Below are positions 50,299 through 60,943 of a DNA stretch of 64,000 bases, piece by piece. Position numbers and translations under genes: made by a program. The stretch comes from a virus. The notes below the pieces were generated by a model. That model was given only the letters and a program-made list of their open reading frames with translations. It was not told the DNA's origin and did not search any database. The DNA lies in IMG/VR virus record IMGVR_UViG_3300049893_000724, positions 1-64,000 of that record. The stretch is one strand, 5' to 3'. Numbering within the stretch: the first letter of the stretch is position 1; every line of letters begins with the position of its first letter.

Positions 50299-51804
50299 TC
50301 AGAAACGGAAAGTCGTCTGAATAACACCACCATAGTTGTCCGAAGCATTCTTCAGACCTTGGTTGTTAGACACATAGAACACAGCAGGAGTTACACTGAT
50401 GTTGTCACTGACCTTGTAACGATAGAATGCTTCCCACATGAGAGCCTTCTTATCATCTGCAAGAGAAGCAGCATTACCAGGAGCGCCGATGGCAAAACCA
50501 GCAGCATTACCCTTGGCAAATACATCACTCCACTGAAGACCTGCCATCCAAGTCTGAGAGTTAGTAGCACCAGTAGGAGTTTGCTTACCAGCAGCATTCA
50601 GACTTACATCAGTCCAACCGTAGGAACCACTCACAGAAGGAATGATACCCGACTTCTTAGGTTGCCAGTATGCATTGATAGCATAGCTACTAGAAGTTTG
50701 TCCAGAAGCAAGAGCAGCAGAACCACCACCAATAGCATTGAAGTTACGAACACGGGTTCCTTCAGTGCCATAGCGGTAACCGAAAGCAATACCATACTGA
50801 GGAGCACGATAACCAACTTGAGCAAGAGTGTTCAGAGCACCAGTCTCATCAAACTGTCCCTTAGAAGAGTTGTCACCACTTTGAGCAACATAGTTCAGAG
50901 CAGCAGTAAGAGCAGGTTTGCCCTTCTTGACTTGTTGAGTCCACTCTACGCCGAAACCAGAACCAGTTGCCTTGTTATAGACACCAGGAGCACCAGCAAC
51001 AGCAAAGAAGTCCAGAATATCAGACTTATATGCGGTGGGCATCCATGCCATTTCAGTGTTACGAACGATAGCACCAGCAGTCAGATTCACACCTTTAGCA
51101 AGTGCTGGAAAACGGTAGTAGAGACGATCCAGTTGCAGTGCATTAGCATAGGTTTCTGCCTTGTCCAGTTTGAACAGGGAAGAAGAGGAACCGAAGGGTT
51201 GACTGGAGAAGTTACCAGTACGCAAACGGGTCTTGAGCAAATCCTTACCAGTAAAGGAAGTATCAAAACTCAGACGGAGATCATAATTGAAGGCAGTATT
51301 GCCAACGTTAGTGTTGTTAGCAAGACGAGCACCTTCTACACCACCCAGAACGAAGGTTGCTTCGCCCTTGAGTTTGGTAGTAGTAGAGAACTGTTGCGCT
51401 TCAAGAGAACCAATCTTCTTATCCAGTTTAGCGATTTGACCACGAAGAACAGTAAGTTCCTTAGCAAAATCGTTAGCAAGACGATTAAGTTCATCAGTGT
51501 TTTCGGTTACACGCTCAAGACAGGAGTTCAGCAGTGCTGCTGCCTCAAAACGAGTCAGAGTTTGACCACCAGCAAACTTGCTGTCAGTCATACCAGCGAT
51601 GCAACCATACTTTTCGATAAGATTGCCCAGGGCTTGATATGCCCAATCACCAGGCTTAACATCTGTAAATTGTGTGACGCTTGTAGCCTGTTCCGAAGAA
51701 GTGTATTGGTTGACTGCTGCCATATTAAGGTCTGCCGCATTCGCAGCAACAGGAGCAACCATTCCCAGAGCAACAGGTGCAAGCATCAGTTGTTTGAGTT
51801 TCAT
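50299..51804 (-). CDS. Cyanobacterial-type outer-membrane porin, 501 aa
   Basis: A signal peptide (MKLKQLMLAPVALGMVAPVA) is followed by an SLH domain (VTQFTDVKPGDWAYQALGNL, IEKYGCIAGMT, then TLTRFEAAALLN) that holds the cell wall, a coiled coil (about 100-135), and an OprB-type beta-barrel to the C-terminal Phe (VIQTTFRF). This is the architecture of cyanobacterial Som-type porins. It sits upstream of pstS with Pho-box-like arrays before it, so it is probably a phosphate-stress porin, widening uptake into the periplasm where PstS works. Its start is a clear ATG. Confidence 0.88.
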   Translation of the reverse strand: MKLKQLMLAPVALGMVAPVAANAADLNMAAVNQYTSSEQATSVTQFTDVKPGDWAYQALGNLIEKYGCIAGMTDSKFAGGQTLTRFEAAALLNSCLERVTENTDELNRLANDFAKELTVLRGQIAKLDKKIGSLEAQQFSTTTKLKGEATFVLGGVEGARLANNTNVGNTAFNYDLRLSFDTSFTGKDLLKTRLRTGNFSSQPFGSSSSLFKLDKAETYANALQLDRLYYRFPALAKGVNLTAGAIVRNTEMAWMPTAYKSDILDFFAVAGAPGVYNKATGSGFGVEWTQQVKKGKPALTAALNYVAQSGDNSSKGQFDETGALNTLAQVGYRAPQYGIAFGYRYGTEGTRVRNFNAIGGGSAALASGQTSSSYAINAYWQPKKSGIIPSVSGSYGWTDVSLNAAGKQTPTGATNSQTWMAGLQWSDVFAKGNAAGFAIGAPGNAASLADDKKALMWEAFYRYKVSDNISVTPAVFYVSNNQGLKNASDNYGGVIQTTFRF

Positions 51805-51961: not shown

Positions 51962-52007
51962 ATCATAGCATAACCATATAAGATGTGTCAATTAAGAGAC
52001 GGTTAAG
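51962..52007 (-). promoter_or_regulatory. Distal Pho-box-like array with -10 element upstream of the porin gene
   Basis: CTTAACCG (52007-52000) and CTTAATTG (51996-51989) are near-perfect PyTTAAPyPy units, 11 bases apart; a weaker third unit CATCTTAT (51985-51978) continues the phase. A TATGAT -10 element (51967-51962) follows 10 bases later. The first unit overlaps the stop codon of the GT25 gene. Together with the proximal array this gives five or six TTAA units before one gene. Confidence 0.7.
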
Positions 52008-52818
52008 AATTTTCTTGTTGTTGGTGCATTGAATTTTCAGTTACCCGACCAAGATATGGATCATAATTCATATAATCTTTGATATCAATGGTTGCTCCAT
52101 TCTGTTCCCAAAACTGAGACTGTGCCTGATAATTTCCCTTATGAAAAGCATCTACGTGCTCTGGGTGAATACTAGATCCAAGCTCTGTTCTATAGAGAAG
52201 AAGAGGAATAGAATAAGTATTACCAGAATTATAAATCAGATCATCAGCGACTGGACGTGGTTTTACACCATTATCAAGTTTATATTTTTCTCCTCTTACG
52301 TGATGCTTTAGAAGTTTTTCGGCATGATGACGATTAATTAGATAGCAAGCCGTTGAGAAATCATTTACAAATCTTTTGTGAAGTTTAACGTGAATATCTC
52401 CGGTACAAATAATAGCAATCTGTACGATATCCCAGTCATAAGGAATGTTTGCATAAAAATCTTGCCAAGAAAAATTCCAATACCTGACTAAATCTAAACT
52501 GCAATCATCCTCCATCATAATCGCATATTGACTATCAGAAGTTTCATACCAATGTTTGATTGCTTTAAGATGAGAAGTAATACATCCAATCTCACCAGAA
52601 GTCATCATCTCAGGATAACGTCCAGTAAGAATATCACTTAGGTCATCTTCACGACCATCATATGCAGAAATGCGTGTGTAATTTTCTATCTCCCAGTATT
52701 TGAACTGGGATTCCATATACTCTTTTCTATCAGGTTGACCATCAAGATTCAAATAATAAATTGGACCGATACCTTTTAGTTTATATGCTGACTTATTTTT
52801 ATCATTAAGATCAAACAT
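52003..52818 (-). CDS. GT25-family glycosyltransferase, 271 aa
   Basis: The start of the domain is GPIYYLNLDGQPDRKEYMES, the GT25 signature, with RISAYDGRED following. SGEIGCITSHLKAIKHWYET and YAIMMEDDCSLDL carry the conserved GCxxSHxxxW and EDD (metal and nucleotide sugar) motifs. GT25 enzymes add Gal or Glc in LPS outer core. It is the last gene of the glycan operon, and its stop overlaps a Pho-box unit. The acceptor is not known. Confidence 0.85.
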   Translation of the reverse strand: MFDLNDKNKSAYKLKGIGPIYYLNLDGQPDRKEYMESQFKYWEIENYTRISAYDGREDDLSDILTGRYPEMMTSGEIGCITSHLKAIKHWYETSDSQYAIMMEDDCSLDLVRYWNFSWQDFYANIPYDWDIVQIAIICTGDIHVKLHKRFVNDFSTACYLINRHHAEKLLKHHVRGEKYKLDNGVKPRPVADDLIYNSGNTYSIPLLLYRTELGSSIHPEHVDAFHKGNYQAQSQFWEQNGATIDIKDYMNYDPYLGRVTENSMHQQQENS

Positions 52819-53530
52819 GATATTTTGAATTGTTTTTCGCTAAGTGTACTATCTTTGGTTCAAAATTGCAATACGTTTCAAAAATTTCTGGATATGCAAA
52901 AGATGGTCCTAATAAATGAACGTTATCTTTGTTTTGAATAAAAAATTTATTTAAGTGGCTTTCATCGTGCCAAACTGCAATTACATTATCATCCAAATCT
53001 TTTTTAACTCTATCTTGCAACTCATTAATCATATCAAGAACTGCAGGAACCTTTCCTCCCCATAAGCATCCTTGATAATAAACAGAAGTGTCATCAGTAT
53101 CAGTTACACAAGCTCTTGAAAGTGGGTTGATTTCAAATGCACCTGGTAGTTGATCGTGAGGTGGCATTTGGAGATAATGGCAAGGATGATGCACTCCAAA
53201 GAGAGACTTTGTGCTATCAAAGAAGTCTTCTTCCGTAATCGTATTAACTACTAAAGCATCAGCATCAATAAAAACAAACCAGTCGTTTTGTGAGATGATG
53301 TCTTTTGCTTTTTGAATGATTTCAAAACGAGTTAGAGTAATATAAGGCCACTCCAAATGTTCTTGATAATATGGAATTAAATTATCTGGAGTCTCATTTA
53401 ACTCTCCGTCAGTAAAAACTAAAATAGTTTTTTCTGCATTTGGCAAAAAATACTTTTCAAGGTTCTCATAATAGTTTGGAAGAAAGTTTAAATATTCTCC
53501 CGTGCCTATAAAACAAATAGCAACTTTCAT
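52811..53530 (-). CDS. GT6-family (ABO blood-group type) glycosyltransferase, 239 aa
   Basis: GT6 enzymes add alpha-1,3-Gal or GalNAc, in people making the A and B antigens. The signature is clear: FIGTGEYLNFLPNYYENLEK, FVFIDADALVV with the metal-binding DAD, LFGVHHPCHY, YYQGCLWGGKVP and IAVWHDESHLNKFF. The last two blocks are diagnostic. Most bacterial members have NxN in place of DxD; this one has DxD like vertebrate enzymes and, as I recall, the cyanophage P-SSM2 member. Start ATG 53530 overlaps the fucosyltransferase stop (TGATG), so the two are translated together. Confidence 0.92.
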   Translation of the reverse strand: MKVAICFIGTGEYLNFLPNYYENLEKYFLPNAEKTILVFTDGELNETPDNLIPYYQEHLEWPYITLTRFEIIQKAKDIISQNDWFVFIDADALVVNTITEEDFFDSTKSLFGVHHPCHYLQMPPHDQLPGAFEINPLSRACVTDTDDTSVYYQGCLWGGKVPAVLDMINELQDRVKKDLDDNVIAVWHDESHLNKFFIQNKDNVHLLGPSFAYPEIFETYCNFEPKIVHLAKNNSKYHV

Positions 53531-54321
53531 CAAATAACCATCCAATCTTCAGGAATTATGTCTTTAGTATCTAGGTGTTCATTATTTGAACCTTTAAACC
53601 AGTCTTTGGGAGAAACTACTTTTTCTTGTTCGGATAACCATGCTCCCCACCAACTAAAAGAACTGTTAGCAATAATATGTTTAGAACAGAGAGTCATTAA
53701 ACAAAGGTCAACATAATTTGAATTTCCTTCAGCAATCAAAAATCGATCTTCAGAAAAAATTTCTTGCTGATTACACCACTCTGGATCATCAGAAAAAACT
53801 AGAACTGTTGAGGTCTCATCAAACTCTTTCAATGCTTTTTTGTAATAATCAAGTTCAAGAGCAGTGTGATTTGGATTAGTGACATAATCTGTCCTACGAA
53901 TGTGTAATGAAATGGGTGAGTCTAGTTCAGATAACATTTCATTACAAGGTTCAAAAATTTCATCTTTGAAAGAAAAATCTCCTTTGATTTCATCTTTGAT
54001 ATGTTTGAAGTACTTTTCTGTTTGAAAATACCCTTGAATAGAAACCCAGTCTGGACATCCATTAAACAGTTTTTCGTCAAAAGAAAAACCACCTTCTACC
54101 ACTGTAGGGCGATCAACATCAATAAACTGAACGTTTAACTGAGTTGTATTAGAAAGTTTAAACGGATTGAATAATTGATGATCAGTCCATTCATTTTGAT
54201 TTTTTGTTGGTGGAATACAATACTCATATCCATTATTCCTAGCAATTCCTTTAAGAGAGGCAAATTGAAACATTTGGTTTCCAAGTCTACCAAATTGACC
54301 TAATGCATTAAAACCAATCAT
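53530..54321 (-). CDS. GT11-family alpha-1,2-fucosyltransferase, 263 aa
   Basis: GT11 enzymes move L-fucose from GDP-fucose to Gal, making H-antigen-like ends. Motifs in order: FGRLGNQMFQFASLKGIA at the start, SLHIRRTDYVTNP (the HxRRxDY donor site) near residue 140, and NSSFSWWGAWLSE near 220. Length is normal. The gene is coupled to the GT6 gene by a 1-base overlap and the same locus encodes the two enzymes that make GDP-L-fucose (57759 and 59942). Together they form a complete fucosylation route from GDP-mannose. Confidence 0.93.
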   Translation of the reverse strand: MIGFNALGQFGRLGNQMFQFASLKGIARNNGYEYCIPPTKNQNEWTDHQLFNPFKLSNTTQLNVQFIDVDRPTVVEGGFSFDEKLFNGCPDWVSIQGYFQTEKYFKHIKDEIKGDFSFKDEIFEPCNEMLSELDSPISLHIRRTDYVTNPNHTALELDYYKKALKEFDETSTVLVFSDDPEWCNQQEIFSEDRFLIAEGNSNYVDLCLMTLCSKHIIANSSFSWWGAWLSEQEKVVSPKDWFKGSNNEHLDTKDIIPEDWMVI

Positions 54322-55262
54322 AACGCAATCACCTTTTCAACATTTGGTAGATAATAATTTTGAATGATATTTACCCAATCAAACTCTTTAGAATACTCTA
54401 AAATTTCTTTTCTGTTTTGTACAGAATAATTTCTATTCTCTATAATTTTTTCTTCAACGTATGAAATGTCCTCTACCTTGTCTTCAGGAATGATTGTAAT
54501 AAATTCCTTCGACTGATCTAAGTTTGCCTTTCCCCATTCAGTAACAACAACGCCAAGTCCTGCAGATAGAGCCTCCATACACACCAGAGGATGTGCTTCA
54601 CCATCGCTTAGTAGAACAAGATTTCCATATTCAGTTAACTGGTCGTGCAAAGTTGGTTTATCCCATTCACCAAGATAATTTTTAGAAGTATTAAACCTAC
54701 TGTCTGCATTATTACCAGCAAACCAAAGACTATCAATACTTTGGAACATATGCTGCCGTTTTCTATAATCTATCTTTGCAAGATAAATTGATCGATCAGG
54801 ATAAGCGGGAGTTTCAGAGTATCTAAATGCTTCGCAGTTAACTCCATTAGGAGTAACAAAAAGTTTTTCCTCTGGAATGTTCATCAAAATTTTATAGATG
54901 TTCTTAATCCCATCAGATAAACAAAAAATATTTGGTTTGATCTGAGCAAATGCATTGGCAATATTTGCATATCCACCGAACATTTCTGGTCTTTCCAAAT
55001 ACCCGAAGTGACTTGTAATTACTTTTGGATATTGAATGTATGGATAGACACCTATAAATTCGTCATAATGTACGTGTACAAAGTCAGGTCTAAATGCATT
55101 TATCTCATTAATGATTTGATTAGGATCTCTGGTGTTTACAATTTGAACTTCGTGTCCCAATTTTTTCAGAGCATTTCTAGTATCCCAAATTAGAATTTCA
55201 ACTGCCCCCCAGCCCGTAGGAGGAATTGGCATAATTCCAGGACCAACTAAAGTAATTTTCAT
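54318..55262 (-). CDS. GT4-family glycosyltransferase, 314 aa
   Basis: A GT-B fold enzyme: MKITLVGPGIMPIPPTGWGA at the N-terminus, PDFVHVHYDEFIGVY and VITSHFG in the first domain, then FVTPNGVNCEAFR and the donor-site motif DGEAHPLVCMEALSAGLGVV with the E-x7-E pattern of GT4. It starts in an ATGA overlap with the HtrL-like gene and ends in one with the GT11 gene. Substrate unknown; one of several transferases building the same glycan. Confidence 0.88.
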   Translation of the reverse strand: MKITLVGPGIMPIPPTGWGAVEILIWDTRNALKKLGHEVQIVNTRDPNQIINEINAFRPDFVHVHYDEFIGVYPYIQYPKVITSHFGYLERPEMFGGYANIANAFAQIKPNIFCLSDGIKNIYKILMNIPEEKLFVTPNGVNCEAFRYSETPAYPDRSIYLAKIDYRKRQHMFQSIDSLWFAGNNADSRFNTSKNYLGEWDKPTLHDQLTEYGNLVLLSDGEAHPLVCMEALSAGLGVVVTEWGKANLDQSKEFITIIPEDKVEDISYVEEKIIENRNYSVQNRKEILEYSKEFDWVNIIQNYYLPNVEKVIAL

Positions 55263-56068
55263 CGCTTACCCAACTCCTCAAACAAAGCAGCGTGTTTACC
55301 ATTATAACGCTCATAGACCTCATAATCATTGGAATATAATTTTACAAGATAACCTAGAGCAATTTGTTCATTATTTACAAAGTTCTCTGCAATCATTTTA
55401 TTCAAGAAAATATCTTCAATGTCTGTTGCAACTTTTTTAAGAGACTCTACACCTCCACCAAACATCGATCCAAGAACATAAGATCTATTATCAAGAAGAT
55501 AACTCTTTGGAAGAATAGATGCATTCGCAAGATCTTTGTAATATTCCATATTCATTTGAACAAGGAATTTATCTCCCATCTGGTTCAGAGCTTCTATTGC
55601 GTTTGGACTTGGATAAGGAAGGTCCAAATCATAGTCATCAAAAAATCTAGATCCGCCAGCATCAACCCAAAAGAAGAATTTACTATCAAATGGATTTTTT
55701 TCTGCAGCAGTTGTTAACCACTTGAATTTGGAGTATTGAATTATGGAATACATTGAGTGCTGGCACTCAATTCTATTTGGATCGGAAATTTTGGTTTTAT
55801 ACTCATCCGAAGAAATAATTCCATCAATCTGTTCCTTGAGGTGATAATAAGGAATGTCATCGATAGTTTGTACAATCACTTCTGTTGGAAGATCCCCTCT
55901 CTTCTCTAAAATAAATGATTCAAGATCCTCAGTAACGAAGAAGATCATAGGGCATTTTAATTTAAGGGTGATTTCAAACCAATCAAGATATTCTTGCCAG
56001 GTTCTTCCATCCATCCCTTCTCTTTTAATATTAAAAAGAGCGGATACAATGGTAAAATCTTTATTCAT
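55259..56068 (-). CDS. HtrL/YibB-like putative glycosyltransferase, 269 aa
   Basis: The protein matches the HtrL/YibB family (LPS-locus proteins, GT-A-like): DFTIVSALFNIKREGMDGRT, YLDWFEITLKLKCPMIFFVT, SIIQYSKFKWLTTAAEKNPF and FFFWVDAGGSRFF. The last block, with DAG as the DxD-like site, is diagnostic. The family is found in many capsule and LPS loci but the reaction is not well defined. It overlaps both neighbours by 4-8 bases. Confidence 0.82.
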   Translation of the reverse strand: MNKDFTIVSALFNIKREGMDGRTWQEYLDWFEITLKLKCPMIFFVTEDLESFILEKRGDLPTEVIVQTIDDIPYYHLKEQIDGIISSDEYKTKISDPNRIECQHSMYSIIQYSKFKWLTTAAEKNPFDSKFFFWVDAGGSRFFDDYDLDLPYPSPNAIEALNQMGDKFLVQMNMEYYKDLANASILPKSYLLDNRSYVLGSMFGGGVESLKKVATDIEDIFLNKMIAENFVNNEQIALGYLVKLYSNDYEVYERYNGKHAALFEELGKR

Positions 56069-56795
56069 AATATTCTCTAAATTGATGAACTAATGGATTT
56101 GGTTTTGATTTCCAATCCGAATCTCTTGAACACTCTATAATTTCTGGATTAAAAACTTCTTCTTCTCCAACTAAAGCAAATAAAGTTGGGAGAAGTAAAT
56201 CGTGAGCGTACATAGCATAATATTCCATTGATAATCTATCAATGATATCTGGATTAGATTTTAGCACAGATAAACCTTTTAGGAAAGTTTTCACTTCAAA
56301 AATTCCAGGAGTTGCTCCCCAACAATCAATAACCTTCGCTCCCTCTATAGAAGATAAAACTTCTTTAAATCCAGGAAAAAGACCTTGATTAATTCTAGAT
56401 CCTAAAAGTTTTGCTGTCTTTGGTATTGTCAATTTTCCTCTTACTAAGGCATCAGGATCCAACATTAAAATATAATCAGTTTTGCAATAATCAATTGCCT
56501 TTTCCAATCTATTCAACGTAGCCCATGCACCACTTATAATTGCTTTTTGATTTTCTTCTTCTCTAAAGTTTCCGGTGATTAAATCTCCAGTAATGTGTTT
56601 TGTCGCTGAGATAGTATCTTCTTCCAAAGAAGTAGTAAGATTTTCATATTCTTTTTGAAGATATGAAAAATCCATTCCACCATCAGAAACCAAATATATT
56701 GGATTATCTGGATATATTTCTCTCAATTTTTTAATAGAATATTCTACTGCTCTTTTTTCATTATAGCAGGTATAAAAAAATCCAAGACTAGACAT
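56061..56795 (-). CDS. Putative GT-A glycosyltransferase, 244 aa
   Basis: The N-terminus SLGFFYTCYNEKRAVEYSIK, the PIYLVSDGG segment and TDYILMLDPDALVRGKL (D-x-D) give a GT-A nucleotide-sugar transferase layout. The rest has no strong family match. It overlaps the HtrL-like gene by 8 bases and follows the next gene by one base. I infer transfer of one sugar in the same glycan. It could be GT2-like. Confidence 0.7.
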   Translation of the reverse strand: MSSLGFFYTCYNEKRAVEYSIKKLREIYPDNPIYLVSDGGMDFSYLQKEYENLTTSLEEDTISATKHITGDLITGNFREEENQKAIISGAWATLNRLEKAIDYCKTDYILMLDPDALVRGKLTIPKTAKLLGSRINQGLFPGFKEVLSSIEGAKVIDCWGATPGIFEVKTFLKGLSVLKSNPDIIDRLSMEYYAMYAHDLLLPTLFALVGEEEVFNPEIIECSRDSDWKSKPNPLVHQFREYYE

Positions 56796-56796
56796 A

Positions 56797-57762
56797 TTAT
56801 AAGATCGAAATCAAACTATGTATTCTGTTTATATACGTATGATTTTCTTTTACAAATTTCATACCACTCTTTATTAAGGTATAATTACTTCTATTTTCCA
56901 TACCATCATAGAAGAGTTGTTCAGTGTTATCATTAAAAATACAATTTCCATCCAGTTCTTCATAGACTGATGGAGAATTTGTTAGTCCCAAATGACCGTA
57001 ACTTATGTTTTTAAAAACTCTACACGTTAACAATCCCTGTTTTAAATGTTGGGGACCTCTAATGTCTATACCAAGTATTGATTTTTTTGTTCTGGCAATT
57101 ACTTCATCAGTTGATAATGGATTAGACCAGGGATCATTATGTTTAAAATCAATATTGTTTTTTCGACAAGCATCTATAAAGGGAACAAAGTTTGAATAAT
57201 TTTCACAAACTCCACTTGGAGATATTGTACCAGAATAATAAATTAAATTCTCTCTTTCCAAATAGATATCATTCTCATCAAATTCTTCTGGAAGAAGATT
57301 GGTTGCCCAACTAATATAAACCTTATCATAATCATCCATTTCATAGTCAACATAATCGTTAACTACTCTGACTTTTTGATTTGTCTTTGGTACAAAATAA
57401 CACGCTGGGCCCAACTTGGTTGAGTTTTGTTTATCTACAGAATACTCTTGAATATGATCTTTAAAATTAACAGCAGTCATTCTAACATCAACATATCTTT
57501 CAGCATTCTGATATTTGATGGGAGAAGGGCAATACATTATATAATAACAACTTGTATCATTGATTGGTATATTCTTATCGGCAAATCCCTCCCCAATAAA
57601 CAAACAATTAGTATAATCAAAATCTAATGGATAATCATCATCGTGAAACCAATATACATCATATCCAAGATGCTTAAACGTTTTATAGTAAGATTCGTGA
57701 ACATATGAATGCGTATGGGAATATAGAGGATGTCCCCAAATTATTACTTTTGAATATTTCAT
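56797..57762 (-). CDS. Putative GT-B-like glycosyltransferase, 321 aa
   Basis: The protein begins MKYSKVIIWGHPLYSHTHSY (start ATG 57762 in an ATGA overlap with fcl). The C-terminal half has GIDIRGPQHLKQGLLTCRVF and ISYGHLGLTNSPSVYEEL, which resembles the nucleotide-binding domain of capsule GT-B enzymes (spore-protein CgeB-like). I cannot assign a family with confidence. Context strongly suggests a glycosyltransferase. Confidence 0.6.
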   Translation of the reverse strand: MKYSKVIIWGHPLYSHTHSYVHESYYKTFKHLGYDVYWFHDDDYPLDFDYTNCLFIGEGFADKNIPINDTSCYYIMYCPSPIKYQNAERYVDVRMTAVNFKDHIQEYSVDKQNSTKLGPACYFVPKTNQKVRVVNDYVDYEMDDYDKVYISWATNLLPEEFDENDIYLERENLIYYSGTISPSGVCENYSNFVPFIDACRKNNIDFKHNDPWSNPLSTDEVIARTKKSILGIDIRGPQHLKQGLLTCRVFKNISYGHLGLTNSPSVYEELDGNCIFNDNTEQLFYDGMENRSNYTLIKSGMKFVKENHTYINRIHSLISIL

Positions 57763-58694
57763 TTGCAAGAGTCGTAATAAGTATGTTCAGTAAACCACTG
57801 ATAAGTTTTAGCAAGACCAGATGCAAGACTGTGATTGGGTTTCCATCCCAAACTAATCATTTTTGAATAATCTAAAGGTCTATTGGGAGTTCCGTTCGGT
57901 CTAGATGTATCCCATTCAATTTCCCCAGTATATCCTACAACAGATGCAACAGTTTCTGCAAGTTCCTTAATACTCACATTATACCCAGATCCAACGTTAA
58001 TTAGCTCTGCATTTTCAAATTTGTCCATAGCAAAAAGACAAGCATCTGCCAAATCATCAGAATATAAAAATTCTCTCATTGGGGTTCCATCACCCCAGAA
58101 AGTTACAGTCTTTCCATTTGAATTATTAAACTTAGTCATCATAGCAGGAATGACGTGTCCGTTTTCGGGGTGAAAATTATCACCAGGACCATATAGATTA
58201 GAGGGCATTAAAGAGACACTTTTGAACCCATATTGTTTACGATATGCCTGAAGCATTTTGATTCCAGAAATCTTTGCAATAGCATATGCATCATTTGTTG
58301 GTTCAAGAAAACCCGTCAATAAAGATTCTTCCTTTACAGGAACCTCAGCAAACTTTGGATAGATGCAAACTGATCCTAGAAACAAAAACTTTTTAACTCC
58401 GTGCTTCCAAGAATTATGAATTAGATTTGTTTGAATTAAAATGTTTTCATAAATGAAATCTGCAGAATAAGTGTCATTTGCATAGATTCCACCAACGCGA
58501 GCAGCTGCATCAAAAACATATTCAGGTCTTTCAGTATTAAAAAAATCTTCTACATCATTTTGATTTAAAAGGTTTAATTCCTGACGAGTCTTTGTAATTA
58601 TATTTGTATATCCTCTTTCAATCAATGTTCTCACAATAGCAGAACCAACTAGACCTCGGTGTCCTGCGACAAATATTTTAGAGTCTTGTTTCAT
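57759..58694 (-). CDS. fcl: GDP-L-fucose synthase Fcl (WcaG), 311 aa
   Basis: This enzyme epimerises and reduces GDP-4-keto-6-deoxymannose to GDP-L-fucose. The NADP site is IFVAGHRGLVGSAIVR, and the catalytic Ser-Tyr-Lys set is in FLGSVCIYPK and YAIAKISGIK. FDAAARVGGIYAND and SNLYGPGDNF are also conserved. Length is normal (about 310-320). It acts after Gmd, encoded two genes upstream, and supplies the GT11 enzyme. The gene order and overlaps suggest one long operon. Confidence 0.95.
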   Translation of the reverse strand: MKQDSKIFVAGHRGLVGSAIVRTLIERGYTNIITKTRQELNLLNQNDVEDFFNTERPEYVFDAAARVGGIYANDTYSADFIYENILIQTNLIHNSWKHGVKKFLFLGSVCIYPKFAEVPVKEESLLTGFLEPTNDAYAIAKISGIKMLQAYRKQYGFKSVSLMPSNLYGPGDNFHPENGHVIPAMMTKFNNSNGKTVTFWGDGTPMREFLYSDDLADACLFAMDKFENAELINVGSGYNVSIKELAETVASVVGYTGEIEWDTSRPNGTPNRPLDYSKMISLGWKPNHSLASGLAKTYQWFTEHTYYDSCK

Positions 58695-58701
58695 AATAAA
58701 A

Positions 58702-59940
58702 TTAAGGAATTACAACTTCTGGATTTGGTAGGGGAAATACTAGCGTTTTTCCTTTGAACTTAGGACTATTAACAAAGAAATTTTTAAAGTGCCACGGTAG
58801 AATTACGAACACGTCACAGGCATCGATTACAGAATCTTCTGCTTGAATAGGAATCCAAGTGCCTGGAGTAAAGGAACCATCTTTATCTGGATTAACGTCA
58901 CCCACGACTTGAATATCATTTGGAGTAACGTTCCAAGTTTGTAGGGTAACATTTCCTTTCGTGCTTGCTCCAAGAGCTGCTACCTTTAGTCCTTGATCTT
59001 TAAACTGACTGATCAACTTCCAAAATTCTAACTTACATTGTTCAATACGGAAAGAAAAATCTTTCCAAGGTTCAAGAGTATCTAACTTAAGATCTAGTTC
59101 TTCTTGTATAAGATCGTTAACTCTTTCTGTTGCTTCTTGATACTTACTTTCTTTATTTGCAACGACTAGAGAAATACTACCACCATTCACCTCATTGAAT
59201 TCAAAGTCAATAATTTTAAAGTTAGAACGATCCATAATATACTTCAACTGCCTCATTCCATAATAAGACAGGTGTTCGTGACATACAGTATCAAAAGAAT
59301 TTACCCGAAGCATCTCAGGCATATAACTTTGTTCTAGAACCCAAATTCCATCTTCAGGATCCAATACAGAGTTTACTTCGCGTGCAAACTGACAAGGATC
59401 TTCAAGATCATAAAACATTGAGAATGATGTAATTAGTTTTGCTTTTTCATTCCCAAAACAAGACTTATATGTCTGCTCACTAAAAAAGTCTGGAATATAA
59501 TCTACGTGCTCTTTATAATATTTGGAAAACTTTTTGGAGGTTGGATCAATGCTCACCAACTTTAGATGTGGGGGAAAGAATCCAAGAAAAGTACCGTCAT
59601 TACCTGCAATATCAATTACAAGATCCTTTTCTTTCAAGTCAAGAAAACTTGCAATCTTTTCATACTTTCCTTGGAGATGTTTAACCATACTGGCATTCAG
59701 TCCAGATCGATACCCATACTCCTGACCATACATTGTAGGGAGATCAAAAGTATGCTCTAACTGAACGTGGCCACACCCACCAGTCTCTTCATTACACTTC
59801 ACAAGTGTAAGCGGACCTCTATACATTCCAGTATCGACAGTTTTAGGAAAAATTCCTGACAGATATTGATTTCCTAAATCTAAAACTGTAACGAGATGAT
59901 CATTGCCACAGATTCTACATTTTTCAATTTTATGAAACAT
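58702..59940 (-). CDS. Sugar C-methyltransferase-like SAM enzyme, 412 aa
   Basis: Three domains match NDP-hexose C-methyltransferases (TylCIII/TcaB9-like). An N-terminal zinc part has KCRICGNDHL and KCNEETGGCGHVQLEH. A SAM-binding part has LVIDIAGNDGTFLG. A C-terminal part has LKVAALGASTKGNVTLQTWN. A downstream HEHLSYYGMRQLKYI is a conserved catalytic segment of the family. It would add a methyl branch to a keto sugar, possibly from the Gmd product. The start is uncertain: ATG 59940 or 59952, the latter overlapping gmd by 11 bases. Confidence 0.85.
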   Translation of the reverse strand: MFHKIEKCRICGNDHLVTVLDLGNQYLSGIFPKTVDTGMYRGPLTLVKCNEETGGCGHVQLEHTFDLPTMYGQEYGYRSGLNASMVKHLQGKYEKIASFLDLKEKDLVIDIAGNDGTFLGFFPPHLKLVSIDPTSKKFSKYYKEHVDYIPDFFSEQTYKSCFGNEKAKLITSFSMFYDLEDPCQFAREVNSVLDPEDGIWVLEQSYMPEMLRVNSFDTVCHEHLSYYGMRQLKYIMDRSNFKIIDFEFNEVNGGSISLVVANKESKYQEATERVNDLIQEELDLKLDTLEPWKDFSFRIEQCKLEFWKLISQFKDQGLKVAALGASTKGNVTLQTWNVTPNDIQVVGDVNPDKDGSFTPGTWIPIQAEDSVIDACDVFVILPWHFKNFFVNSPKFKGKTLVFPLPNPEVVIP

Positions 59941-59941
59941 A

Positions 59942-60943
59942 TCAGTGCTCATTAATACACATATCCTCAACTAATTGTTTAAATGAAGTCTTTGGTTCCC
60001 AACCAAGTTCCTTCTTTGCCTTAGAGGCATCACCCAATAAAGTTTCCACTTCAGCAGGTCGAAAATATTTAGGATCAATTATAACACAAACCAATCCAGT
60101 ATTGCTATCAATACCAACCTCGTCCAGACCTTTACCTTGCCATACAATATTCATACCAAAGTAAGGTGCTGCTTGCTCTACAAACTCACGAACAGAATAC
60201 TGAACACCAGTTGCGACCACATAATCATCAGGTTTATCTTGCTGAAGCATTAACCACATTGCTTCTACAAAGTCTCTAGCGTGTCCCCAATCACGTTTTG
60301 CATTCAGATTACCTAGAGTAAGAACTTCTTGCTTACCTTCGGATATTGCTTTTAGAGCCCTAGTAATCTTACGAGTTACAAATGTTTCACCACGTCTTGG
60401 AGATTCGTGGTTAAAAAGAATACCAGTGCAAGCATACATTCCATATGCTTCACGATAATTCTTTGTAATCCAATATCCATAAATCTTTGCTACACCATAA
60501 GGAGAGCGGGGATAAAAAGGAGTAGTTTCGCGCTGAGGAGTTTCTTGAACAAGACCGTAGAGTTCGCTTGTAGATGCTTGATAGATGCGTACACGGTCTT
60601 CCATACCCAGGAGACGCACTGCTTCAAGAACACGAAGAGTTCCCATAGCATCGACATCAGCAGTATATTCAGGCATCTCAAAGGATACCTTAACGTGACT
60701 CTGAGCACCAAGATTATAAATCTCATCTGGTTGAACTTTTTGTATGACTCTTACTATATTTGTAGAATCTGTTAAATCTCCGTAATGTAACTTAATATTT
60801 TGATACAAATGGTCAATACGATGAGTATTGATTAGGGAAGAGCGCCTGATGATACCGTGAACTTCATAACCTTTTTCTAGAAGAAGTTCAGCAAGGTATG
60901 ATCCATCTTGTCCCGTAATACCTGTGATTAATGCAACTTTCAT
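59942..60943 (-). CDS. gmd: GDP-mannose 4,6-dehydratase Gmd, 333 aa
   Basis: Gmd makes GDP-4-keto-6-deoxy-mannose, first step to GDP-fucose. The NADP site is [20 protein letters not shown]; the catalytic Thr-Glu with Tyr-Lys are in QASTSELYG and [15 protein letters not shown]; the dimer and substrate segments [16 protein letters not shown] and [14 protein letters not shown] are intact. The length is close to bacterial Gmd (about 330-370). The gene feeds Fcl and possibly the adjacent C-methyltransferase. Substrate GDP-mannose must come from the host. Confidence 0.96.

Follow-up and report, generated by a model that had tools for sequence, protein, structure and literature searches.

Which sugar does a virus make when it carries nucleotide-sugar genes beside a coupled pair of glycosyltransferases, and onto what is that sugar placed? 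The question is raised by a gene cluster on the minus strand of IMG/VR virus record IMGVR_UViG_3300049893_000724, a record of 184,459 bases whose positions 1 to 64,000 were analysed as one stretch (64,000 nucleotides, the window). A reading made earlier from the letters alone (the sequence-only reading) saw in this cluster a phage-encoded route to a blood-group-like glycan, in which Gmd and Fcl would make plain GDP-L-fucose, an enzyme of glycosyltransferase family 11 (GT11) would add it as an H-like Fuc-alpha-1,2-Gal and an enzyme of family 6 (GT6) would complete an A- or B-like trisaccharide; it suggested that this could mask or change the host LPS, for example against superinfection. That the locus is phage-encoded and holds Gmd and Fcl was confirmed by the virus record itself, by Pfam and NCBIfam matches and by the gene order of DSL-LC02 (Kyanoviridae), the annotated genome nearest to this record. 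For the product, we give an even chance to a different answer: the locus would be a phage glycan-capping set, in which Gmd, a sugar methyltransferase (MT) and Fcl make a methyl-branched L-sugar that is transferred by GT11 and extended by GT6.

A methyltransferase lies between Gmd and Fcl

The genes and sites that carry this argument were observed as follows.

59942-60943, minus strand: Gmd (Pfam GDP_Man_Dehyd, 520.7 bits; TIGR01472 (gmd), 570.6 bits, above the cut-off of 415)
58702-59970, minus strand: MT, a sugar 3-C-methyltransferase of the TylC3/TcaB9 type (Pfam Methyltransf_13/23/14; 4rv9 TylC3, E 2.8e-40)
57759-58694, minus strand: Fcl-like GDP-4-keto-6-deoxymannose epimerase/reductase of the MT-linked clade (Pfam Epimerase, 214.8 bits; 1bsv, E 8.1e-104)
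58368-58370, minus strand: codon for Val109 of Fcl (E. coli position 108; numbering via the 1bsv alignment)
53530-54321, minus strand: GT11, alpha-1,2-fucosyltransferase family (PF01531, 96.1 bits, cut-off 23.9)
52811-53530, minus strand: GT6 (PF03414, 76.1 bits, cut-off 25; BoGT6a 4ayj, E 1e-24)
53066-53074, minus strand: Q153-G-C155, the donor loop of GT6 (GT6 alignments)

Among solved structures, the best match to MT was D-mycarose 3-C-methyltransferase (TylC3), followed by other sugar 3-C-methyltransferases. With this relative, a three-domain architecture and an H-E-H motif, the protein belongs to the TylC3/TcaB9 type. The motif is retained in 71 of 72 phage copies, and the Tyr that precedes it in TylC3 is Cys in all 72. 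The start codon of MT is uncertain (the TTG at 59970 falls inside the last part of Gmd), and the Gmd at 59942-60943 is the single Gmd match in the whole record.

All 70 MT loci returned by a viral scan were compared. Gmd lies directly upstream of MT in 66 of them, 59 reading Gmd-MT-Fcl and 7 ending within or just after MT; the gene set of a GDP-virenose-type pathway (Gmd, a 3-C-methyltransferase and Fcl together) is thus present in the window and in 59 of the 70 loci. An unbroken run of Gmd-MT-Fcl-GT11-GT6 was found in 24 loci, or in 23 of the 47 with at least 2.6 kb downstream. These 24 fall into 12 groups at 95% MT identity and 6 at 90%, and the full 70 into 26 groups at 90%. Six annotated phage records match MT, and DSL-LC02 alone among them is named a cyanophage.

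The remaining loci are L283 (GT6-MT-Fcl), L331 and L332 (Gmd 904 bases downstream) and L335 (cut, with no scored neighbour). In L283 the gene just before MT-Fcl is a GT6; its contig, G417, holds another GT6 and gave no Gmd match at E 1e-60. L331 (9995-13289), like L332 and L335, encodes a 43% identical methyltransferase, on a contig with a terminase-like protein; this may be a separate recruitment of the same chemistry. A cyanobacterial host as the source of the trio was considered and rejected: an MT relative (E <=1e-60, 38-44% identity) occurs in 12 of 386 cyanobacterial genomes, a set not known to include marine picocyanobacteria, and Gmd-MT-Fcl in none of those 12 regions, in one of which a strong Gmd relative adjoins MT.

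The partner Fcl is also distinctive. In the window it scored 442.6 bits against NF047922 (GDPFucSynFcl), under the cut-off of 500. When 43 distinct MT-linked Fcl proteins were compared with 21 that adjoin Gmd without MT (E. coli numbering), C109, Y136, K140 and H179 were kept in all 64 and S107 in 63, all five residues being present in each of the 43 MT-linked proteins. Position 108, beside the catalytic Cys, is V in 42/43 MT-linked proteins and S in 21/21 others, and 16 alignment columns in total separate the two groups. A tree placed 42 of the 43 in one clade with a long stem; the exception, L282, lies among the ordinary Fcl and has S.

The proposed sugar product

Because a TylC3-like MT lies inside the pathway genes and its partner Fcl belongs to a distinct clade, plain GDP-L-fucose as the end product is not supported. 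These gene families point to a probable product of another kind, a virenose-type fucose analogue with a methyl branch at C3. The proposed GDP-virenose pathway of Coxiella likewise places Gmd, a TylCIII-type 3-C-methyltransferase and GMER/Fcl in series to GDP-L-virenose, with TylCIII inverting at C3, according to PMC3539893. That scheme was built in silico and the likeness is to the published scheme alone, whereas the phage genes are contiguous and often adjoin GT11-GT6.

We infer each chemical step from these parallels. MT would methylate C3, after which the specialised Fcl would epimerise C5 and reduce C4 to give a GDP-6-deoxy-3-C-methyl-L-hexose. Inversion at C3 with C5 epimerisation and C4 reduction would lead to 6-deoxy-3-C-methyl-L-galactose, that is, 3-C-methyl-L-fucose, while the opposite outcome at C3 would lead to its C3 epimer, L-virenose. 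By our own reasoning, a quaternary carbon would not permit the C3 epimerisation that the scheme in PMC3539893 needs after methylation. Both 3-C-methyl-L-fucose and L-virenose are fucose analogues that might be acceptable to a GT11.

GT11 and GT6 form a coupled pair

The junction between the two transferase genes reads TTTGATGAAA, in which the GT11 stop TGA and the GT6 start ATG have one base in common, exactly the overlap that the sequence-only reading had described. GT11 belongs to its Pfam family and carries HIRRTD at residues 140-145, which fits HxRRxD; no credible relative of GT11 was found among solved structures.

Viral loci were taken as the best 80 of at least 460 for GT6 and the best 80 of at least 588 for GT11, and the 80 GT6 loci include three (L025, L082 and L086) that sit in contigs already present as L004, L006 and L007. 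GT11 is present in 78 of the 80 GT6 loci, the other two being cut. GT6 is a separate gene in 63 loci. In 55 of these it follows GT11 directly, and in 5 more GT11 lies upstream within 2.5 kb; two have GT11 downstream, both of them cut about 0.5 kb upstream of GT6, and one locus is cut. In the other 17, GT6 is fused to a GT4-like protein, and the GT4-like protein of the window is a homologue of this fusion partner. The fusions are about 555-590 aa long (L035, L036, L038, L041-L046, L052-L054, L059, L062, L063, L067 and L083). GT11 follows 5 to 1,078 bases downstream in 16 of them, with GT25 also following, and the seventeenth contig is cut. Such a fusion is compatible with both enzymes acting on one sugar residue.

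Among loci flanked by 3 kb or more on each side, GT11 occurs in 48/48 GT6 loci and GT6 in only 25/50 GT11 loci. This one-way dependence agrees with GT6 working on the GT11 product, and the earlier view that the two enzymes belong together stands. For bacteria, the best 80 of 227 GT6 loci were used, which were found via phage-derived patterns and so favour phage-like loops; 31 of these have GT11 within 1.5 kb and 21 have it at another place in the locus, while no GT11 was found in the other 28. Ten gut-type Lachnospiraceae/Clostridiales contigs (L103, L106, L118, L121, L122, L125, L132, L133, L154 and L163) have GT11 immediately upstream of GT6, as in the phages.

Matches to GT6 were found in 71 phage records, of which 64 are named as phages of Synechococcus or Prochlorococcus and the rest are marine, uncultured or unspecified; for GT11 the number was 104. 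GT11-GT6 coupling is common in cyanophages, its outline has been known since P-SSM2, and it is not new in kind. In 2014, GT6 genes were counted in 36 bacterial species and two cyanophages (PMC3961637).

The GT6 donor loop matches no ABO type

GT6 of the window has its DxD motif at D89-A90-D91 and its catalytic Glu at E190 in WHDE; against NF041524 (Gltr_6) it scored 183.7 bits, under the cut-off of 250. The sequence-only reading was right that the metal-binding DxD is kept. It had also called this unusual, which holds against bacteria (NxN in 62/79 sampled, DxD in 12/79) but not among viruses, where DxD is the rule (111/111 distinct GT6). The catalytic Glu is likewise retained in 111/111 viral GT6, and three rows (L208, L240 and L283) are altered at the equivalents of Arg73, Trp189, His190 and Asp191.

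The donor loop of GT6 in the window reads YYQGCLWGG, whereas BoGT6a has YYAGGLSGG and the ABO chain 4frq has YYMGAFFGG. QGC occurs in 110/111 viral GT6, the exception being P-SSM2 (AGG). The ABO donor-loop residues, which we take to be positions 266/268, are of L/G or M/A type, and the window has Q and C instead. By their sequences, the phage GT6s are a subfamily with a Q-G-C donor loop, distinct from ABO and BoGT6a. With a loop outside the ABO types, neither an A-type nor a B-type end is predicted and the donor is not readable from sequence, so that the A- or B-antigen-like end proposed earlier finds no support here. The accompanying premise that GT6 enzymes normally act on Fuc-alpha-1,2-Gal was too broad: it holds for ABO enzymes and BoGT6a, but alpha-3-galactosyltransferase and the synthases of iGb3 and Forssman are not known to use this acceptor. 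Nine bacterial GT6 rows also have Q as the first of the loop residues, and two of these, L097 and L098, combine DAD with QGC. These two are contigs binned as Omnitrophota and Saprospiraceae with a phage-type GT6, and are possibly viral contigs in metagenome-assembled genomes.

On this evidence, a plain-fucose pathway ending in a blood-group trisaccharide, with MT acting elsewhere, appears unlikely. Although the GDP-fucose synthase catalytic residues are retained in Fcl, GT11 and GT6 are true family members and coupled, P-SSM2 and ACG-2014f carry Gmd-Fcl with GT11 and GT6 (an MT match being reported for neither), and the nearest solved relative, BoGT6a, makes A-like products (PMC3961637), this reading is opposed by an MT embedded in the trio in 59/70 loci, an Fcl clade that falls under the NCBIfam cut-off, and the QGC loop.

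Proposed exchange of suppliers

Ten phage genomes with a GT11-GT6 pair, together with the record of the window, were searched whole for sugar suppliers. A strong Gmd without GDP-mannose 3,5-epimerase (GME) was found in 5/11 (the window, DSL-LC02, DSL-LC03, P-SSM2 and ACG-2014f), and GME without a strong Gmd in another 5/11, two of which have a dehydratase 34-38% identical to Gmd. Another sugar epimerase lies directly upstream of GT11 in S-CAM9, S-PRM1, S-8S55, Bellamy, SynMITS9220M01 and marine virus AG-345-E15, and that of AG-345-E15 matches GME (2.1e-79). In 20 larger contigs, chosen by hand mostly for size and mostly fragments, GT6 was present in 17, with Gmd only in 12, both Gmd and GME in 1 and neither in 4.

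In 106 distinct pairs of GT11 and GT6, 10 of them bacterial, the gene directly upstream of GT11 was scored. It was an MT-linked Fcl in 22 pairs, GME in 21, GT4 in 14 and an Fcl lacking MT in 11; 33 had none of the scored types there, and 5 were cut. Across the 96 viral pairs, the supplier labels change 6 times on the GT11 tree (shuffled mean 36.4) and 10 times on the GT6 tree. So few changes suggest that suppliers were mostly inherited with the pair and switched more than once. The conservation and exchange of these modules are observed; what each delivers is a proposal, in which the pair would be supplied with L-fucose by plain Gmd-Fcl or with L-galactose by GME in other cyanophages. With rather less than even confidence, we suggest that GT11-GT6 is a constant capping pair with interchangeable GDP-L-hexose suppliers, among them the C3-methyl-branched fucose-analogue route, so that swapping a single small module would give the host a surface glycan type specific to the phage.

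Other genes of the cluster

In the direction of transcription along the minus strand, the cluster runs Gmd, MT, Fcl, a protein without assigned function, GT2-like, HtrL/YibB-like, GT4-like, GT11, GT6 and GT25. MT and the GT25, GT4, HtrL/YibB and GT2-like genes are additions to the gene list of the sequence-only reading.

56797-57768, minus strand: conserved protein without assigned function
56061-56795, minus strand: GT2-like protein (PF00535, 20.3 bits, under the cut-off of 23.3)
55259-56068, minus strand: HtrL/YibB-like protein (PF09612, 55.3 bits)
54318-55262, minus strand: GT4-like glycosyltransferase (PF13439, 39.7 bits)
52003-52818, minus strand: GT25-like glycosyltransferase (PF01755, 47.9 bits)

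The protein at 56797-57768 had no match in Pfam, PHROG or NCBIfam searches, and its predicted structure (mean pLDDT 41.4) was not used. Promoter- and terminator-like sites in the cluster were no more frequent than in shuffled sequence. For GT6, GT11, MT, Fcl and Gmd, comparison of the window with four relatives gave dN of 0.09-0.26 and dS of 0.79 up to saturation, which indicates purifying selection. Beyond the cluster, the 501-aa product of 50299-51804 (minus strand) combines S-layer homology and OprB porin domains, the cyanobacterial outer-membrane porin type; the equivalent place in DSL-LC02 holds a short 'outer membrane protein' gene.

The methyl-branched sugar could instead be used by another transferase of the cluster (GT4, the YibB-like protein or the protein without assigned function), possibly as a D-sugar if Fcl were a reductase only, while GT11 used host GDP-fucose. 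The distance of 3-5 kb between the trio and GT11 in the window and DSL-LC02 is consistent with this, as are 6/70 MT loci that read Gmd-MT-Fcl-YibB-GT4 in the genes scored; we nonetheless find it rather improbable, given that the trio stands directly before GT11-GT6 in 24 loci and that C109 and H179, which are required for epimerisation (PMC3539893), are kept in 43/43 MT-linked Fcl.

Discussion

In the capping-set reading, the neighbouring GT4 would help to build a glycan, GT11 would place the fucose analogue on one of its sugars, and the translationally coupled GT6 would attach one more sugar next to it. The steps would come in the same order as in blood-group synthesis, with another L-sugar and an unspecified GT6 donor in place of the familiar ones. 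The blood-group wording should therefore be replaced by a GT11-GT6 cap with an unspecified donor.

The acceptor and the purpose of the cap are likewise proposed, the likely target being a host envelope glycan during infection. GT6 and GT11 enzymes use sugar acceptors, and the locus has polysaccharide-type neighbours (GT25, GT4 and a WavE-like protein). Both points make it quite improbable that the transferases act on the virion or on phage DNA, as against the DNA glycosylation that the authors of DSL-LC02 propose for its PF03414 (GT6) protein (PMC10611076).

Several observations weigh against the capping-set reading or its extension to exchangeable suppliers. GT6 precedes GT11 in the GT4-GT6 fusions, so gene order is not fixed. 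The trio of the window is separated from GT11 by the protein without assigned function and the GT2-like, YibB-like and GT4 genes, so another transferase may use its product. The GT11 proteins of the five-gene operons form one clade with that of the window outside it, so the direct link between trio and GT11 reaches the window by analogy only. The Fcl signature arose once in evolution, which supports specialisation without proving it. Strict exclusivity of Gmd and GME was rejected: it is clean in 10/11 whole records, with B23 holding neither (1/11), and is broken by contig G001, which holds both, and by the four GT6 contigs with neither. GT11 residue 144 (T or G in HxRRxD) was also rejected as a donor mark. 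It agrees with the supplier in 52/54 labelled rows and fails a relatedness control; because supported branches gave just 3 independent pairs, 1 agreeing and 2 without a difference, it was not counted as evidence.

The locus itself is real and well conserved, and its outline was known. The sugar cluster of P-SSM2 (PSSM2_257 to 271, AY939844) also brings together Gmd, Fcl, GT11, GT6 and GT25 beside hli and ferredoxin genes; its Fcl is a nucleotide-sugar epimerase scored as Fcl, and its three transferases are annotated as such. It differs in that no MT match was reported and in its GT6, which lies two genes from GT11, has an AGG loop and is 36% identical to that of the window. DSL-LC02 (OR032571), a Kyanoviridae genome assembled from Dishui Lake (PMC10611076), is closer, sharing the orders GT25-GT6-GT11-GT4 and Fcl-MT-Gmd, with hli, ferredoxin and peroxiredoxin genes alongside and identities of 68% (GT6), 68% (GT11) and 75% (MT). 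It differs by one extra gene in the cluster, an FkbM methyltransferase, and by its published interpretation as GDP-fucose synthesis plus DNA glycosylation (PMC10611076); cyanophage Gmd and Fcl have been read as GDP-fucose synthesis in PMC9602691 and PMC10611076. BoGT6a of Bacteroides ovatus and human ABO share the fold family, catalytic Glu and WHDE motif with the phage GT6, whereas the phage loop is QGC in place of AGG or the ABO types and the phage DxD replaces the NxN of BoGT6a.

Two points are new: the reading of a methyl-branched sugar and that of supplier modules which can replace one another. No description of a phage Gmd-MT-Fcl trio or of supplier exchange was found in the open literature searched, most subscription papers lying outside that scope. 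Among the matches listed for virenose there was no phage title, and among open-literature titles on cyanophages and C-methyltransferases there was none on a cyanophage sugar cluster.

If true, the proposed synthesis of a branched C-methyl deoxysugar in cyanophages would add a new kind of auxiliary metabolism, in which a virus makes an exotic sugar to rewrite the glycan of its host. The title of PMC3539893 describes virenose as unique to the lipopolysaccharide of Coxiella, and with a phage route such as this one the environmental gene pool for sugars of this type may be much wider. The exchange of suppliers around a fixed pair would also offer a clean system for the study of GT11 and GT6 donor specificity, host-surface effects and superinfection.

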